Source: Myxococcales bacterium (GTDB taxonomy: Bacteria > Myxococcota > Myxococcia > Myxococcales > JAJYLH01). Taken from it: DNA of 64,000 nucleotides. Position numbers and translations under genes: made by a program. A model generated the notes under the pieces. The model was not told the DNA's origin. It worked only from the letters and a program-made list of their open reading frames with translations, and made no database searches. Shown one piece after another: positions 10,226 to 56,205 of this stretch (positions within the stretch are counted from its first letter, which is position 1; every line of letters begins with the position of its first letter). Where the stretch lies: the NCBI GenBank assembly GCA_021787845.1, contig JAJYLH010000001.1:302736-366735 (forward strand), given 5' to 3'.

Positions 10226-12025
10226 CTACCGCTCTACCCGCTGTCGCTCTGGGGTTTCGGGCTCGGCCTGGTAAGCCGGCTGGCTCGCGGCGAGCGGCAA
10301 CCGCACCTCGGCCGTCGTTCCCACTCCGGCGGCGCTCTCGAGCTTGAGCTCGCCCCCGTGGTGGCGCACCACGTCCAGGCTCATCGTCAGCCCGAGGCCG
10401 GTCCCCTGACCGACCGGCTTGGTGGTGAAGTAGGGGTCGAACACTCTGGGCAGCACCGCTGCTGGGATCCCGACGCCGCTGTCGCGGATTTCGACCAGAG
10501 CGAAGCCGTCCTCGGTCCGGGTGGAGACGGTGACGAAGTGGAGCTCGGGCGCGCCTGGCGGGATGGCGTCGGCGGCGTTGCGCAGGAGTTGAATCAGCGC
10601 CTCCCGCAGCCGGCCCGGATGCCCTTGAATCTGCGGGACCGCTTCCGCCCTGCGTTCGAGCCGGGCCCGCGCGGTCAAGAGCGGGCGCAGGAGGTCGAGG
10701 GTCGAGTCGACCAGCTCGTTCAGGTCGACCGGCTGCAGCCCCTCGCGCGCGTGGTGTCCGAAGTCCCTCAGCCCGCGGACGATGCGGCGGATGCGTTCGC
10801 CGCCCTCCTGCGACTCCTCGACGATGTGGTGGGCCTCGGTGAGCGCCCGCTCGACGCCGGTCTCCTGGAGCGACGACGCGAGGGAAGGAACCGCCAGCGC
10901 CTCGCCCAGGCACCGTTCGAAGGTCGCGAGGTGGCCGGCGAGCACGTGCAGGTTCGCCAGGATGAACGCGGTCGGGGTGTTGATTTCGTGGGCGAGCCCG
11001 CTCGCGAGCTGTCCGACCACCGCCAGCCGCTCGTTCTCCAGCATCCGCTCCTGGCTCTGCTCGAGCGTCTTCACCGCCGCCTGCGCCCGCTCGAAGAGCA
11101 GCGCGTTCTCCAGCGCCACCGCGATCACCCCGGCGAGCCTCGGAAAGAAGGCGCGCGCCCGCTCGCCGAAGGGACGCTTGCGGCCGGCGGCCACCACCCC
11201 GAGGAAGTGACCCTTGGCGACCAGCGGCGCTGCCGTGTAGGCCCGATACGCCGGGGCGAGGTGGAGCCGCGCGAACGCTTCCGGTGGTAGCTCGTCCCAG
11301 ACCTCCGCCTCTCGGCTCGTCGCCACTTTTCCGGCGATGCCCGCGCCATAGGCGATTCGCTCCTCGCCCTCCGACGGCGCGAGGCCGCCGACCCGGGCGG
11401 CCAGGACGAGCTGCGCTTTCGCTTCGTCGGCGAGCAGCACCTCGACGTCGGCCTCGAGCACCCGCGACGCGGCCGCGAGCGCGCGAGCGAGCATCTCCCT
11501 CCGGTCGAGCGATTGGCTCGCGGCGTTCGCCACCGCTTCCACCGCGTCCAGCTCCGCGGCGCGCGCTTCGGCCTGCGCGACCGCCACCGACAGCGCCTCC
11601 TCCCGCGCCTTCAGGTCCAAGAGCATCTGCCGGTTGTCGCGGTCGAGCCGCCGCAGCCTCGCCGCGTTCGCCACCGTCGACAAGAGCAGGTCGAGGTCGA
11701 ACGGCTTCTCCAGGTAGGCGAAGGCGCGAAACTCGACCGCGCGGGTCGCGGTCTCGACGTCGGCGTGCGCGGTCATCACGATGAGCTGGGTTTCGACGCC
11801 CGCGGCCCGCGCCCGCTCCAAGAGGTCGATGCCCGAGAAGTCGGGGAGCATGATGTCGATGAGGGCAACGTCAGGGGCGCCGCCGAGCAGGAGCTCTAGC
11901 GCTTGGCGCGCGCGCTTCGCCAGGACGACGTCGTAGCCTTCCTGGCGCAGCACCTCGGCGACGGCGCTGAGAAGCACCGGACTGTCGTCGACGACCAGGA
12001 CCGTCGTCCCGCGTTCTTCGACCAA
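10226..12025 (-). CDS. hybrid response-regulator / GAF / histidine kinase
   Basis: A receiver domain (VLVVDDSP, D in IDIMLPDFSG, T in VMTAHAD, K in YLEKPFD) is followed by a coiled linker and a GAF domain (about residues 160-320). A HisKA H-box (GLAHEINTP) and a HATPase domain follow, with N-box LLRNAADA, G1 DSGVGIP and G2 GTGLGLTM. There are no membrane segments, so it is a soluble signalling protein that may be switched by receiver phosphorylation or a GAF ligand. The TTG at 12025 with GAGGGA upstream starts right before the receiver; the frame stays open to an ATG at 12337 across repeat-rich sequence, so the start is uncertain. No cognate regulator gene is adjacent. Confidence 0.85.
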   Translation of the reverse strand: MVEERGTTVLVVDDSPVLLSAVAEVLRQEGYDVVLAKRARQALELLLGGAPDVALIDIMLPDFSGIDLLERARAAGVETQLIVMTAHADVETATRAVEFRAFAYLEKPFDLDLLLSTVANAARLRRLDRDNRQMLLDLKAREEALSVAVAQAEARAAELDAVEAVANAASQSLDRREMLARALAAASRVLEADVEVLLADEAKAQLVLAARVGGLAPSEGEERIAYGAGIAGKVATSREAEVWDELPPEAFARLHLAPAYRAYTAAPLVAKGHFLGVVAAGRKRPFGERARAFFPRLAGVIAVALENALLFERAQAAVKTLEQSQERMLENERLAVVGQLASGLAHEINTPTAFILANLHVLAGHLATFERCLGEALAVPSLASSLQETGVERALTEAHHIVEESQEGGERIRRIVRGLRDFGHHAREGLQPVDLNELVDSTLDLLRPLLTARARLERRAEAVPQIQGHPGRLREALIQLLRNAADAIPPGAPELHFVTVSTRTEDGFALVEIRDSGVGIPAAVLPRVFDPYFTTKPVGQGTGLGLTMSLDVVRHHGGELKLESAAGVGTTAEVRLPLAASQPAYQAEPETPERQRVER

Positions 12026-12360
12026 GGCTTCCCTCGCCCTGGCGGCAAAGGCCGACTCCGCCTCCCTCCTCCATCGGCCGGCGGGCGGCGGCTTTGAGGG
12101 GCGCTCGGCCGAGGTGTCGCGCTCTTCCCCGCCGCCGCGATCCCGAGCGAATCCTACGCTCGCCCGGACACCGCGAGATCTGGCGGGCGAGGTGGCGAGG
12201 GCCCCCAGGCCGGCAGGAAGGTCGGAGCGCGGGCACCCGCAGCCGGATACCGGCAGCGCATCCGCCCCCCTTGGGGCTCCCGCCCGCCGCAAGGCAGGAC
12301 CGCTGCCGCCCTCACGGTGGACGCTGGTGCAGCCCATGACAAGTGTCGTGCTTTATCGTG

Positions 12361-51199: not shown

Positions 51200-51601
51200 A
51201 GCGCACCGACGTCTTGGCCACGCCCTCCAAGAGCGGACTTGACCCGCCACGCCCACTGACAGCGCTTTCGTTCATCGGGTGCGCCTTTGATTTGAGGCGC
51301 CGCTGCTGCTCACCATTGACGAGCCGGGACGGCCGCTGCGCCCGGCCAGCAATATCTATTCAAATAGCCGCATCGCCGGGCGTGGGGTCGAAAGCCCGGA
51401 TGCGCGCTCGCCAGAGGGGGGGCGTGGTCCAGCGGTGTTGCGCTGGTCGGTCGGGTGCCTAGCTTTCTTTCGATCGGTTCCATCCGTCCACCCGCTTCGA
51501 GTTGCGACCGGCAGAGCTGCGGCTATGCATTCCGGGTAGACGCTGGGCAGAGGACGGGACGAGCTCGCCGGGACTGCCGGACGTCGGAAAGGGTGCCGAT
51601 C

Positions 51602-53251
51602 GTGAATCCGCCGGAGCCCGCGTCGCCGACGCCAGAGCTCCACCCGCGGGACGCCGTCCTGCGGACGATGGCTGAAAGCTATGCGGCAGGGCTCAAGGAG
51701 TACCTGACCGGTTACGGAGAGGGCGCGCTGGAGAGGGCTTACAGCCTCGGTCGCCAGGGCATCTCGCTGGACCTGGGCGTTCTGCGCATGACGCTCATCC
51801 ATCAGGCGGCGCTGGACGAGCTGGCGCGCGGGGCCGAGTCCGCCGACGAGTGCCGCACGCTGTGCGACCGGGCCGCGGAGTTCTTCGCCGAGTGCCTGGC
51901 GCCATTCGAGATCGTCCATCGGGGCTTTCGCGAATCGATCGAGGAGCTCAAGCACCAGACCGAGGAGTTGGCGCAGGCGAACAAGTTGATCGAGCGGATG
52001 AGCCGAGCGCGCTCCGCCTTCCTCGCCGAGGCGAGCCGGCGGCTGGCGGCGACCTTGGACTATCCGGCGACGCTCGAGACGGTCGCCCAGCTTCCGGTAC
52101 CGGAAATGGCGGACTGGTGCGCCGTGCTCCTGGTCGACGACGGCGGCCGGACGCGCGTCGGCGCCATCACGCATGCTCAGGCGGAGCGGAGCCAGGAGGT
52201 GGAAGCGCTCAGAGCTCACCAGGAGTGCTTTCGCCTGGCAGGACCAGGCGTCGGACGGACGCTTCGCACGGGAACCTCCGAGCTGTTGCCCACCGTCACC
52301 CAGACCCTGCTCGACAGCATCACGGCCGACCCGGAGAGCAAGCGTCTCCTGGGAGCGCTGGGGTTTGGTTCCGCGGTGTTGGCGCCGTTGGATGCCCGGG
52401 GGAACCGCCTGGGAGCGCTCCTGCTTGCCGCCGCGACGCCCGGGCGCTTCGGGGACGACGACCTGCTGCTCGGCGAGGAGCTCGCCCGGCGGGCGTCGAT
52501 GGCGCTGGAGAACGCCCGCCTCTACTCCGACGCGCGCCGGGCGATCAAGCTGCGCGACGACTTCCTCTCCATCGCGTCCCACGAGTTGAAGACGCCCCTG
52601 ACGCCGCTCGTGCTCAAGCTCCAGATCGCGGCGCGGCGGCTGAAGAGCGGCACCCCGGTGGACCTGACGGTGCTGGAAGCGGCCATTCGCAACGTCGAGC
52701 GGCTGACCGCGCTCATCAACGACCTCTTGGACGCCACGCGCATCGAGGCCGGCCGGCTGGAGCTCAAGCTGAGGAAGCTCACCCTGGCGCCGCTCGTGCG
52801 GGAGATGGCGACGACGTTCCAGACCGACGCCGGCCGCCCGATCGAGCTGTCGATCGAGGGGGACCCGGTGGTGACCGCCGACCCCGGCCGCATCGAGCAG
52901 GTGTTGACGAACCTCCTGGACAACGCCCTCAAGTACAGCCCGCACGACGGGGCAGTCCGGGTGCGGTTATGGGTAGCGGGAGGGGAAGCGCTCTTCTCGG
53001 TGAGCGACGAGGGCATCGGAATCCCGCCAGCGGAGCGGGAGCGGCTCTTCCAGCGCTTCTTTCGGGCGGAGAACGCCCAGTCGGCGGCGTACGGGCTGGG
53101 CCTGGGCCTCTACATCTGCCGGGACATCGTGGAACGGCACGGGGGCCGCATCTGGGTCGAGAGCAAAGAGGGGGAGGGGAGCACCTTTCTCGTAGCGCTC
53201 CCGCTCAACGGCGGGCCTCCAGGGTCTCTGGAGGGGAAGGGAGTAGCGTGA
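51602..53251 (+). CDS. sensor histidine kinase with RsbU-N-like domain
   Basis: A 549-residue soluble kinase. The first domain (about 16-75) is KEYLTGYGEGALERAYSLGRQ ... LGVLRMTLIHQAAL, which resembles the RsbT-docking N-terminal domain of RsbU. A helical linker, a GAF domain (about 150-306), the H-box SIASHELKTPLTP (His327) and a HATPase core (LLDNALKYSP, SDEGIGIP, GLGLYICRDI) follow. GTG 51602 has GGAAAGG upstream; the frame is open to 51455. Its stop overlaps the RsbR gene start (TGATG). It likely replaces the RsbU phosphatase as the stressosome output (inferred). Confidence 0.85.
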   Translation: MNPPEPASPTPELHPRDAVLRTMAESYAAGLKEYLTGYGEGALERAYSLGRQGISLDLGVLRMTLIHQAALDELARGAESADECRTLCDRAAEFFAECLAPFEIVHRGFRESIEELKHQTEELAQANKLIERMSRARSAFLAEASRRLAATLDYPATLETVAQLPVPEMADWCAVLLVDDGGRTRVGAITHAQAERSQEVEALRAHQECFRLAGPGVGRTLRTGTSELLPTVTQTLLDSITADPESKRLLGALGFGSAVLAPLDARGNRLGALLLAAATPGRFGDDDLLLGEELARRASMALENARLYSDARRAIKLRDDFLSIASHELKTPLTPLVLKLQIAARRLKSGTPVDLTVLEAAIRNVERLTALINDLLDATRIEAGRLELKLRKLTLAPLVREMATTFQTDAGRPIELSIEGDPVVTADPGRIEQVLTNLLDNALKYSPHDGAVRVRLWVAGGEALFSVSDEGIGIPPAERERLFQRFFRAENAQSAAYGLGLGLYICRDIVERHGGRIWVESKEGEGSTFLVALPLNGGPPGSLEGKGVA

Positions 53252-54195
53252 TGGCAGACGTCGCACGGCCGCTGTCGAAGGAAGCGGGCATCACCGAGGA
53301 GGAGTTCGCCCGGCGCAAGGACTACCTGGAAATCGGGCCCGACGACATCGACCGCCTGAAGCGGATGAACGAGTTCGCCCAGGAATACGCGGTTCCGGTG
53401 ATCGACGAGTTCTACCGACACATCATGAGCCACGACGAGTCGGCGGCGTTCTTCCGGGACCCGCGGGTGCTCGAGCGGGTGAAGCGGTTGCAGGTCGAGT
53501 ACTTCAAGCGGCTGACCACCGGCGAGTTCGACGCGGCCTACGCCGAGAACCGGCTGAGAATCGGCGCGGTCCACGAGGCGGTCGACCTGCCGACGAAGCT
53601 CTATCTCGGCAGCTACGCCTTCTACCTGCGCACGGTCGCCGCGAAGATCCGCGAGGCGTATCGCGAGACGCCGGAGCGGGTCCTCGACTCGTTCCTCTCC
53701 CTCTTGAAGGTGGTCTTCCTCGACATCGGCCTCGCGATGGACACCTATCTCGTCCGGCGCGAGCGGACCATCCGCCACCAGGAAGAGGCGCTGCGCGAGC
53801 TGTTCACCCCGGTGCTCCAGGTGCGGCCGGGGCTGCTCATCATGCCGATCATCGGCCCCATCGACTCCCAGCGGGCCCGCCGTTTGACCGAACAGCTCCT
53901 CGCCGGCATCCGCCAGAACCGCGCCCGAGTCGTGGTCATCGACATCACCGGCGTCCCCAGCGTCGACTCGCGGGTCGCGAACCACCTGGTGCAGACGGTC
54001 CAGGCCTGCCGGCTGATGGGCGCGCGGGCGATGCTGACCGGCCTCACCGCCGAGGTCGCGCAGACCCTGGTCAACATCGGGGTCAACCTCGCCAACGTGA
54101 ACACGGTCGGCGACCTCCAGGGCGGCATCGAAGAGGCCGAACGGCTTCTCGGATACCGCGTCACCCGCGAGGACGGCACGCCCCCACGCGGATGA
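53251..54195 (+). CDS. rsbR: RsbR-like globin-sensor STAS protein
   Basis: A 314-residue stressosome scaffold/sensor. Residues about 15-175 form a globin-type sensor (EYAVPVIDEFYRHIMSHDES, then RIGAVHEAVDLP with the candidate proximal His108), suggesting haem and O2 or NO sensing. Residues about 190-305 are a STAS domain with IDITGVPSVDSRVANHLVQTV (phosphoacceptor Ser240 in the VDS position) and LTGLTAEVA. Start ATG 53251 overlaps the kinase stop. It is followed by rsbS and rsbT. Confidence 0.93.
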   Translation: MADVARPLSKEAGITEEEFARRKDYLEIGPDDIDRLKRMNEFAQEYAVPVIDEFYRHIMSHDESAAFFRDPRVLERVKRLQVEYFKRLTTGEFDAAYAENRLRIGAVHEAVDLPTKLYLGSYAFYLRTVAAKIREAYRETPERVLDSFLSLLKVVFLDIGLAMDTYLVRRERTIRHQEEALRELFTPVLQVRPGLLIMPIIGPIDSQRARRLTEQLLAGIRQNRARVVVIDITGVPSVDSRVANHLVQTVQACRLMGARAMLTGLTAEVAQTLVNIGVNLANVNTVGDLQGGIEEAERLLGYRVTREDGTPPRG

Positions 54196-54219
54196 GCGGC
54201 CGGAATTCGGAGGACCTCG

Positions 54220-54603
54220 ATGCGCGTTCCCATCCTCAAGCAAGGCCCGTACCTCATCGCCTCGGTCCAGTCGGCCTTGACCGACCAGGACCTGGTGCAA
54301 CTGCGCGACGAGCTCGCCGACCGGGTGGGCAAGAGCCGGGCCAGGGGGGTCATCGTCGACGTGACCGTGTTGGACGTGATGGATTCGTTCGCCACCCGGA
54401 CCCTGCGGACCATCGCCCACGTCATCCGCCTGCGGGGCGCGGAGACGGTGATCGTCGGCATCCAACCGGGCGTCGCGTTCGCGATGGTGCAGCTCGGCTT
54501 GAGCCTCGAGGGGGTCGAGACCGCTCTCGACCTGGAGGAGGGCATCGCCGTCTTGAACGAAAGGCTGCGCGCGACGTCGGGAGCGGTCCCCGATGGCGGA
54601 TGA
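54220..54603 (+). CDS. rsbS: RsbS-like STAS antagonist
   Basis: A 127-residue single-domain STAS protein. VIVDVTVLDVMDSFATRTL contains Ser56, the target of RsbT kinase in characterised systems. It is short and lacks a sensor, as in RsbS, and would form the stressosome core with RsbR. Its 3' end overlaps rsbT by 11 bases (54593-54603), consistent with translational coupling. Confidence 0.93.
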   Translation: MRVPILKQGPYLIASVQSALTDQDLVQLRDELADRVGKSRARGVIVDVTVLDVMDSFATRTLRTIAHVIRLRGAETVIVGIQPGVAFAMVQLGLSLEGVETALDLEEGIAVLNERLRATSGAVPDGG

Positions 54604-54994
54604 AGCCCAGTACGCGATCCGCTCCGACACCGACGTGGTCTTCGTGCGGCAGGCGGGGCGCAAGCTCGCGCAGGAGCTCGGGTTCGCGGGGAGCGACCTC
54701 ATCCTCATCGCCACGGCCATCTCCGAGCTGGCGCGCAACATCCTGGAGTACGCGAAGCTCGGCGAGGTGCGGCTCTGTCCGGTCGAACGCGACGGCCGCC
54801 AGGGGCTGACCGTCATCGCCGAGGACCACGGCCCCGGCATCCCCGACGTCGCCCTCGCGATGCAGGACGGATACTCTACAAGTAGATCACTGGGGCTGGG
54901 GCTGCCGGGCACCCGGCGCCTGATGGACGAGTTCACCATCGACTCGCGAGTGGGCGAGGGCACCATCGTCACCGTGACCAAGTGGATAACTTAG
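54593..54994 (+). CDS. rsbT: RsbT-like switch kinase
   Basis: A 133-residue GHKL kinase. The N-box ISELARNILEY (Asn49), D78-H-G-P-G-I-P (G1) and SLGLGLPGTRRL (G2) match RsbT, which phosphorylates RsbR/RsbS and then leaves the stressosome to switch on an output protein. It overlaps rsbS and is followed 5 bases later by the RsbX-like phosphatase. Confidence 0.94.
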   Translation: MADEAQYAIRSDTDVVFVRQAGRKLAQELGFAGSDLILIATAISELARNILEYAKLGEVRLCPVERDGRQGLTVIAEDHGPGIPDVALAMQDGYSTSRSLGLGLPGTRRLMDEFTIDSRVGEGTIVTVTKWIT

Positions 54995-54999
54995 GGCCG

Positions 55000-55617
55000 A
55001 TGGACGCGGGCCGGGACAGCGTTCTCGAGTGGGCGACGGCCTTCGCGCCGATGCCGGGCGAGAGCGATACCGGGGACCTGGGGCTGGTGGTGTCGACGGC
55101 GGTGGGCGCGCTGGTCGCGGTGATCGACGGCGCGGGGCACGGGCCGGGCGCGACCCGGGCGGCGCAGGCGGCGGCGAGCGAAATCGTGGACCATCGCGAC
55201 GAGCCGGTCGAGCACCTGTTCGAGCTCTGCCACGAGATCCTGCGGCGCACCCGAGGGGCGGTGATGACGCTCGCCAGCATCGACGCCGAGGCGCAGCGGA
55301 TGAGCTGGGCGGGCGTGGGCGACGTCGACGGGGTGCTGGTGCGGGAGGCGAGCCCCCGCCAGTGGCTGGTCGCCCGGGGCGGGGTCGTCGGCTTTCAGCT
55401 TCCGCCGCTCTACTGCTCGAGCCTCGCTCTCGCGCCCGGCGACGTGCTGATCCTGACCACCGACGGGATCCAGGAAGGCTTCGCCGACCGGCTGGACTGC
55501 CGGGGACCGGCCACGCAGATCGTCGATCAGGTGCTCGCCCGCAGCTTCCGCGGGACCGATGACGCGCTGGTGCTCGCCGCGCGCTATCTCGGGCCCGGGG
55601 GCCGCTCATGCTCCTGA
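55000..55617 (+). CDS. rsbX: RsbX-like SpoIIE/PP2C phosphatase
   Basis: A 205-residue PP2C-like phosphatase. VAVIDGAGHGPGA carries the first metal Asp, SWAGVGDVDGVL and LILTTDGIQEG the later metal-binding blocks. Its short length without a sensor matches RsbX, which dephosphorylates RsbR/RsbS to reset the complex. ATG 55000 is preferred over GTG 54982, which would overlap rsbT. The next gene, rimP, runs the other way and ends 12 bases past this stop. Confidence 0.9.
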   Translation: MDAGRDSVLEWATAFAPMPGESDTGDLGLVVSTAVGALVAVIDGAGHGPGATRAAQAAASEIVDHRDEPVEHLFELCHEILRRTRGAVMTLASIDAEAQRMSWAGVGDVDGVLVREASPRQWLVARGGVVGFQLPPLYCSSLALAPGDVLILTTDGIQEGFADRLDCRGPATQIVDQVLARSFRGTDDALVLAARYLGPGGRSCS

Positions 55618-55629
55618 GCACCTGATGTC

Positions 55630-56205
55630 TCACGTCCGATCAGACCGATCGGTCGGATCCGACTGATCGGTCCGATCGGATGATGGGCTGCGTTTGCGCT
55701 CCAGCTCTCCAGCGGACGCGCCGTCCTTCGGCGACCAGACGAGGTGCGCCTTCGCGATGGCGTCGAGCGGCACCCGAAACACCGTCCCGTCGACGTTGAC
55801 CAGCACCGCTTCGCCCTCGAGCCCCTCGAGAGTGCCGTCGTACACCTTGCGCGCCTCCGCGCCCTCGACCGGCGCGTAGGTCTTCACCCGGGCGCGCCGA
55901 CTCCGGAACCGCTCGAAGTCCGCCTTCTTGCGCAAGGGCCGGTCGAGCCCGGGCGAGCTGACCTCGAGGGTGTAGCGCGACTCGAACGGATCCTCGACGT
56001 CGAGCATCGCGTCGACCGCCTGGGAGACGCTAGCGCAGTCGTCGAGCGTCACCCCTCCTGCCCTGTCGATGTAGAGCCGGAGCACGGTCTTCGGTCCGGC
56101 GCCCACCACCTCCACCTCGACCAGCTCGTAGCCTTCGTGGATCAAGAGCGGTTCCACCAGGCGCGACAGATGCTCGATGAGCGCGCGTCCCTTCAACCGC
56201 GACAT
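55630..56205 (-). CDS. rimP: ribosome maturation factor RimP with repeat-derived tail
   Basis: A 191-residue 30S assembly factor. YELVEVEVVGAGPKTVLRLYID, GVTLDDCASVSQAVDAMLD and YTLEVSSPGLDRPL are the classic blocks; the C-terminal SH3-like domain ends near residue 165. The last about 20 residues (SDRTDQSDPTDRSDR) come from a family 2 repeat. ATG 56205 has AGGAGGC upstream. The usual nusA-infB partners are absent, so rimP is alone here. Confidence 0.93.
   Translation of the reverse strand: MSRLKGRALIEHLSRLVEPLLIHEGYELVEVEVVGAGPKTVLRLYIDRAGGVTLDDCASVSQAVDAMLDVEDPFESRYTLEVSSPGLDRPLRKKADFERFRSRRARVKTYAPVEGAEARKVYDGTLEGLEGEAVLVNVDGTVFRVPLDAIAKAHLVWSPKDGASAGELERKRSPSSDRTDQSDPTDRSDRT
55636..55682. 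repeat. CGATCGGTC-type repeat, family 2, copy 2
   Basis: GATCAGACCGATCGGTCGGA followed by TCCGACTGATCGGTCCGATC: overlapping palindromes of a 9-base unit. It lies inside the 3' end of rimP, between convergent rsbX and rimP. It encodes repeated Ser-Asp-Arg-Thr residues. Confidence 0.8.

Follow-up and report, generated by a model that had tools for sequence, protein, structure and literature searches.

A putative gas-sensing stressosome with a predicted two-component output in a Myxococcales bacterium

We analyzed a window of 64,000 nucleotides from a Myxococcales bacterium (positions 302,736 to 366,735 of contig JAJYLH010000001.1), in which five genes appear to encode a stressosome together with its output, a histidine kinase (HK). 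All five genes are on the + strand, and they fill positions 51602-55617 of the window. The gene for the HK (549 amino acids; 51602..53251) comes first, and it is followed by the genes for RsbR (314 amino acids, with a protoglobin sensor and a STAS domain; 53251..54195), RsbS (127 amino acids, a single STAS domain; 54220..54603), the switch kinase RsbT (133 amino acids; 54593..54994), and an RsbX-like feedback phosphatase (211 amino acids, a single-domain PP2C of the SpoIIE family; 54982..55617). The HK gene starts with GTG, preceded by GGAAAGGG, and its reading frame is open as far as a GTG at 51455. The ATG of rsbR overlaps the TGA stop codon of the HK by one base, and rsbR and rsbS are separated by 24 nt. 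The rsbT gene shares 11 nt with rsbS and, given a GTG start for rsbX, 13 nt with rsbX. An initial annotation of this DNA had described a globin-RsbR, RsbS, RsbT, and RsbX-like series after an HK, with overlapping or nearly overlapping junctions, and we found all five genes where it placed them.

The four Rsb proteins have the expected domains. In Pfam, RsbR matches Protoglobin (E = 5e-34) and STAS (E = 8.5e-17), RsbS matches STAS, RsbT matches HATPase_c_2, and the RsbX-like protein, whose gene lies directly after rsbT, matches SpoIIE/PP2C (PF07228, E = 1.8e-13). The best full-length match of RsbR in the Protein Data Bank (PDB) is RsbR from Vibrio vulnificus (7o0i_B, E = 1.2e-41), and the best match of its globin part is the globin-coupled histidine kinase AfGcHK (5ohe). 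RsbR keeps a proximal histidine (H108) and a distal-type tyrosine (Y55), which align with AfGcHK and HemAT. Its S206 and S240 occupy the positions of the phospho-threonines of Bacillus subtilis RsbR; similarly, S56 of RsbS, in the motif DVMDSF, is at the phosphoserine position. The ATP-site residues N49 and D78 are present in RsbT. Judging from these features, the genes form a stressosome RsbRST module of the RSTX subtype, with a heme globin-type RsbR. In V. brasiliensis, the activity of RsbT is highest with unliganded Fe(II) RsbR and lowest with oxygen (PMC4976288), so by analogy, low oxygen is the likely trigger of the RsbR in the window.

The predicted link between this module and the HK is the N-terminal domain of the HK. 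The HK matches RsbU_N (residues 25-99), GAF (about 157-303), HisKA, and HATPase_c (427-536) in Pfam, with a linker helix between RsbU_N and GAF. It has the H, N, G1, and G2 boxes; the H-box, SHELKTP, lies in the HisKA part and begins at residue 326. Codons 25-99, which encode the predicted RsbT-docking domain, correspond to 51674..51898 (+ strand). The initial annotation had matched this region to the N-terminal domain of RsbU by eye and proposed a profile search. In that search, RsbU_N matches residues 25-99 just above the cut-off (26.0 bits versus 25.5, E = 1.1e-5). We also scanned the whole genome of the host (6.24 Mb in 153 contigs, 98.2% complete), and the only RsbU_N is at the position of the HK (29.5 bits).

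Because the match of the single sequence is marginal, we built family profiles. With a profile of nine RsbU_N domains from the host's taxonomic order, including the HK in the window, the top four hits among 177,635 PDB sequences were N-terminal domains of B. subtilis RsbU (E = 5e-7 to 4e-5). With a profile of 50 sequences, the only hits at E ≤ 0.1 were RsbU N-terminal domains (best E = 3.5e-8). The by-eye match is thus borne out: the domain passes the Pfam cut-off and its family profiles retrieve the solved RsbU domain. (A search of PDB with the single sequence had given a weak helical match to the ROP protein and no RsbU, which the family profile corrected.) An AlphaFold2 model of the domain, built from the 50-sequence alignment, has a pLDDT of 95.6 and helices at residues 15-35, 39-55, 60-75, and 81-152, so the domain is predicted to be a four-helix bundle that continues into a long linker helix (81-152). 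When we compared the model to PDB structures with Foldseek, the matches included RsbU (1w53, probability 0.96) and the C-terminal domain of KaiA, but none had an E-value below 0.001, because the domain is a small helical bundle; we consider these fold matches as supportive only. The C-terminal domain of KaiA and the N-terminal domain of RsbU belong to a common fold family.

In B. subtilis, the interface between RsbU and RsbT involves E24, Y28, I74, I78, and R91 of RsbU and R19, R23, N24, and D92 of RsbT (PMC12143880). Using the profile alignments to find the equivalent residues, E24 of RsbU, which is involved in binding RsbT, corresponds to E40 of the HK, and this glutamate is invariant in 50 of 50 relatives. 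R91 corresponds to K117, just outside the RsbU_N match, and is arginine or lysine in 38/50 relatives; I74 and I78 are both alanine in the HK. RsbT from the window keeps R19, R23, and D92. In summary, the glutamate and the salt-bridge pair (the basic residue and D92 of RsbT) are kept, and the tyrosine is lost.

In the host's order, RsbU_N is found in 9 of 145 genomes; a more sensitive profile identified the same nine among 195 genomes from the phylum. All eight of the order's RsbU_N proteins that could be read are HKs, and they have four designs. The HK in the window is RsbU_N-GAF-HisKA. The proteins at loci L047 and L050 are RsbU_N-PAS-HisKA and are encoded after a second rsbT, while those at L045 and L046 are RsbU_N-PAS-HisKA-HATPase-REC hybrids encoded after rsbX. 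The remaining three (L044, L048, and L049) are RsbU_N-HisKA_3, with L048 assigned by its similarity to the other two rather than by a Pfam scan; at L044, the gene overlaps that of a LuxR-type regulator. RsbU_N also co-occurs with RsbT. A strong RsbT (over 160 bits) is present in seven of the 145 genomes, and all seven contain RsbU_N, versus 2 of the other 138 (Fisher's exact test, p = 1.6e-10, uncorrected for shared descent).

Some loci in the order have other arrangements. The second rsbT paralog lies between rsbX and the RsbU_N HK (L047:8328-8696 and L050:12804-13278, both on the - strand). The second RsbT of L047 is 48% identical to RsbT from the window, and the copy in L050 is apparently in two pieces. 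These second RsbT proteins may be dedicated activators, apart from the stressosome-bound RsbT. In genome G012 (93% complete), rsbT is directly after the gene for a LuxR-type regulator (L185:6569-7697, - strand), the RsbU_N gene is cut at the end of another contig, and we did not find RsbS in the genome. Here, RsbT is accompanied by a two-component system but, apparently, by no stressosome. Finally, L186:8452-12372 (+ strand) and also L187 encode RsbR, RsbS, RsbT, an RsbT-SpoIIE fusion, and then an RsbT-like-HisKA-HATPase-REC-REC protein. By its domain content, this is another type of stressosome, in which an RsbT forms part of a histidine kinase.

The initial annotation had suggested looking for the same fusion in other genomes, and it turns out to be widespread. 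We examined 80 loci with the closest relatives of RsbS in GTDB genomes. Because the set consists of the closest relatives and is thus biased, its fractions apply only to this branch of stressosomes. In 55 of the 80 loci, a gene with RsbU_N lies directly after the module, which ends with rsbX in nearly all cases. By matches to HK catalytic regions, 50 of these 55 genes encode HKs (34 HisKA_3 and 16 HisKA; nine have an internal REC domain). The other five are one PP2C, one GGDEF-EAL protein, and three that are cut or unclear. A LuxR-type response regulator adjoins 33 of the 34 HisKA_3 kinases, and the exception is cut by a contig end. Also, after accounting for RsbS and RsbX, the distances between RsbT proteins still correlate with those between RsbU_N domains (partial Mantel r = 0.38). 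According to their record titles, the sources of the loci include Acidobacteria/Terriglobia, Nitrospirae, Rokubacteria, Bacteroidetes, Chloroflexi, Deltaproteobacteria, Polyangiaceae, and Methanoperedens archaea. On balance, we think that stressosomes of this branch most commonly act through an RsbU_N HK with a LuxR-type regulator, across many phyla and in Methanoperedens rather than in a few Proteobacteria, and that RsbT and the HK are a module of their own that can exist without RsbR or RsbS, as in G012.

We did not detect RsbU_N in the loci from Gemmatimonadetes, where the module is instead followed by a sigma-54 activator (AAA and Fis HTH domains, ~470 amino acids) and a TPR protein (~431 amino acids). 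At L089:7421-10131, rsbRSTX overlaps the gene for the sigma-54 activator, and L094, L108, L109, L123, and L127 are similar. This pair is a possible unrecognized output of stressosomes.

Given that no sigma branch was found (see below), that the readable RsbU_N proteins of the order and of 50/55 loci are HKs, and that 33/34 HisKA_3 kinases adjoin a LuxR-type regulator, the best reading is that signals pass from RsbT to the HK to a response regulator. We give a probability of roughly 0.77 to a gas-sensing stressosome, composed of the heme globin RsbR, RsbS, RsbT, and RsbX, with this two-component output. The genes, domains, and key residues, as well as the single RsbT, the single RsbU_N, and their repeated pairing in other genomes, can be read from the sequences. 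In the proposed mechanism, RsbT would be held by the RsbR/RsbS core in the resting state. A change in the ligand state of the globin (by analogy with Vibrio, the loss of oxygen) would lead RsbT to phosphorylate RsbR and RsbS and to be released. Free RsbT would then bind the dimeric HK at its RsbU_N four-helix bundle and linker and, via the long linker helix and the GAF domain, would switch its kinase activity, most likely on. The phosphate would pass to a response regulator encoded elsewhere, and RsbX would dephosphorylate RsbR and RsbS, which would reset the core. The initial annotation had proposed this route from gas sensing through release of RsbT to a His-Asp relay, and the RsbU_N match and the lack of a detectable sigma branch support it; we infer the ligand, the binding of RsbT to the HK, the sign of regulation (activation), and the partner regulator of the HK.

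Several observations weigh against this reading. The position of RsbU's Y28 is a glutamate (E44) in the HK and varies among its relatives, and in B. subtilis, changing Y28 to isoleucine abolishes the binding of RsbT. In RsbT, N24 is replaced by K24. An RsbU_N HK without a detected RsbT occurs in two genomes, G003 (97% complete) and G002 (61% complete). The partner regulator had been sought, but unlike in most relatives, no response regulator lies beside the HK in the window. (We considered a hybrid HK, REC-GAF-HisKA-HATPase, at 10226-12337 on the - strand of the window, as the partner and rejected it: it is 40 kb away and has its own GAF and REC domains.) Our literature search gave no biochemical data on any RsbU_N histidine kinase, and binding of Vibrio RsbT to the two-component protein D1, which lacks RsbU_N, could not be shown (PMC9237108).

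Could RsbT have another role? RsbT might dock on the HK but turn it off, or convert it from a kinase to a phosphatase; the relay would then be active while the stressosome is at rest. Bifunctionality is frequent among HKs, and the evidence for docking is silent on the sign. However, B. subtilis RsbU is activated when RsbT orders its linker (PMC12143880), and the model of the HK predicts this linker helix as well, so we consider this alternative unlikely. Less likely still, RsbT might phosphorylate the HK, or the HK might be a mere genetic neighbor whose RsbU_N-like bundle serves for dimerization only, with GAF as the sensor. Phosphorylation by RsbT has been proposed for Vibrio outputs without RsbU_N (PMC9237108), RsbU_N is a dimerization domain in RsbU (PMC12143880), and G003 retains the HK without RsbT. 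But E40, G50, and R51 of the HK are invariant among outputs of several unrelated types, and within the order RsbT and RsbU_N occur together almost without exception.

Alternatively, RsbT could really feed a Bacillus-like partner switch that controls a sigma factor and is encoded elsewhere, perhaps in an assembly gap. In a profile search, a single protein of the genome is a true RsbT (E = 2.4e-68), and no other match reaches 1e-18. Further HATPase_c_2 matches are weaker, and the short-frame ones that we inspected are HK-like. We searched the genome for a short RsbW-like HATPase_c_2 protein, RsbV, an RsbU phosphatase, or a second RsbU_N, and we found none. Apart from RsbX, whose SpoIIE match is strong, the genome gives only three weak SpoIIE matches, and none of its sigma factors passes the SigB/F/G cut-off. 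There are four STAS matches: RsbR, RsbS, a 639-residue frame, and a 130-residue protein. The last of these, a single-STAS protein (L051:5045-5437, on host contig C128) whose gene is immediately followed by an rsmH-like gene, could be seen as part of a switch, but it lacks the phospho-Ser motif. The initial annotation had noted the absence of RsbV, RsbW, and sigma B from the window, and we found none in the whole genome either; it had named a sigma branch using the same RsbT as one of the findings that would overturn its proposal. A sigma branch is mostly refuted, and we consider it very improbable.

At the downstream end of the operon, a strong inverted repeat (23+23 nt, 55635..55680) separates rsbX from the convergent rimP gene, whose 3' end contains it. 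Its RNA stem has a z score of -5 and it lacks a T run; it is a possible transcript end. The palindrome is made of 9-nt spaced repeats (55633-55680) and encodes the repetitive C-terminal tail of RimP (DRTDQSDPTDRSDRT). We did not find a sigma-70 consensus promoter in the operon region, which says little.

The initial annotation's view of the wiring as unusual was too strong, since the idea is in print: control of HKs by RsbT was proposed for Proteobacteria by Heinz et al. 2022 (PMC9237108) and in eLife 2025 (RP100376, PMC12143880). What we add are new arrangements and a wide spread, which includes Methanoperedens archaea. We found no earlier report of such a spread in the open literature, which our search covered (subscription papers were outside it). 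Our results support RsbU_N as an exchangeable plug that connects one sensory complex to phosphatases, cyclases, or histidine kinases, and they suggest that coupling of stressosomes to two-component systems is common beyond Proteobacteria. Six-gene operons (RsbRSTX, HK, and LuxR-type regulator) are ready-made for reconstituting the predicted control of the HK by RsbT.

Among known systems, the closest are the rsbRSTX modules of Heinz et al. (PMC9237108), which have a protoglobin-STAS RsbR, RsbS, RsbT, and RsbX, no sigma branch, and varied downstream outputs, some with RsbU_N (in alpha, beta, and gamma Proteobacteria) and some with HisKA/REC. Those outputs are downstream of rsbX, whereas the HK in the window is upstream of rsbR, is RsbU_N-GAF-HisKA, and has no adjacent regulator. 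The eLife study described the same dock on HKs near stressosome genes, such as the NreB-like MBI3545564.1, and proposed the RsbT-driven linker mechanism (PMC12143880). Those HKs were named for some Proteobacteria only, by structure prediction, while the one in the window is of the HisKA type with a GAF domain. In Moorella thermoacetica MtG, RsbT acts via RsbU_N and GAF on an output that is not a phosphatase, as shown experimentally according to the citation of Quin et al. 2012 in PMC12143880; as described there, that output is a diguanylate cyclase (GGDEF), unlike the HK. The oxygen-sensing stressosomes of V. brasiliensis and V. vulnificus share the heme globin RsbR (PMC4976288, PMC9237108), but D1 of V. 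vulnificus has no RsbU_N (PMC9237108). Lastly, the RsbRST-RsbU-RsbVW-SigB system of B. subtilis has the same RsbR/RsbS core, RsbT switch, RsbU_N docking domain, and RsbX feedback, but its RsbR globin is non-heme, and it acts through a PP2C phosphatase and sigma B.

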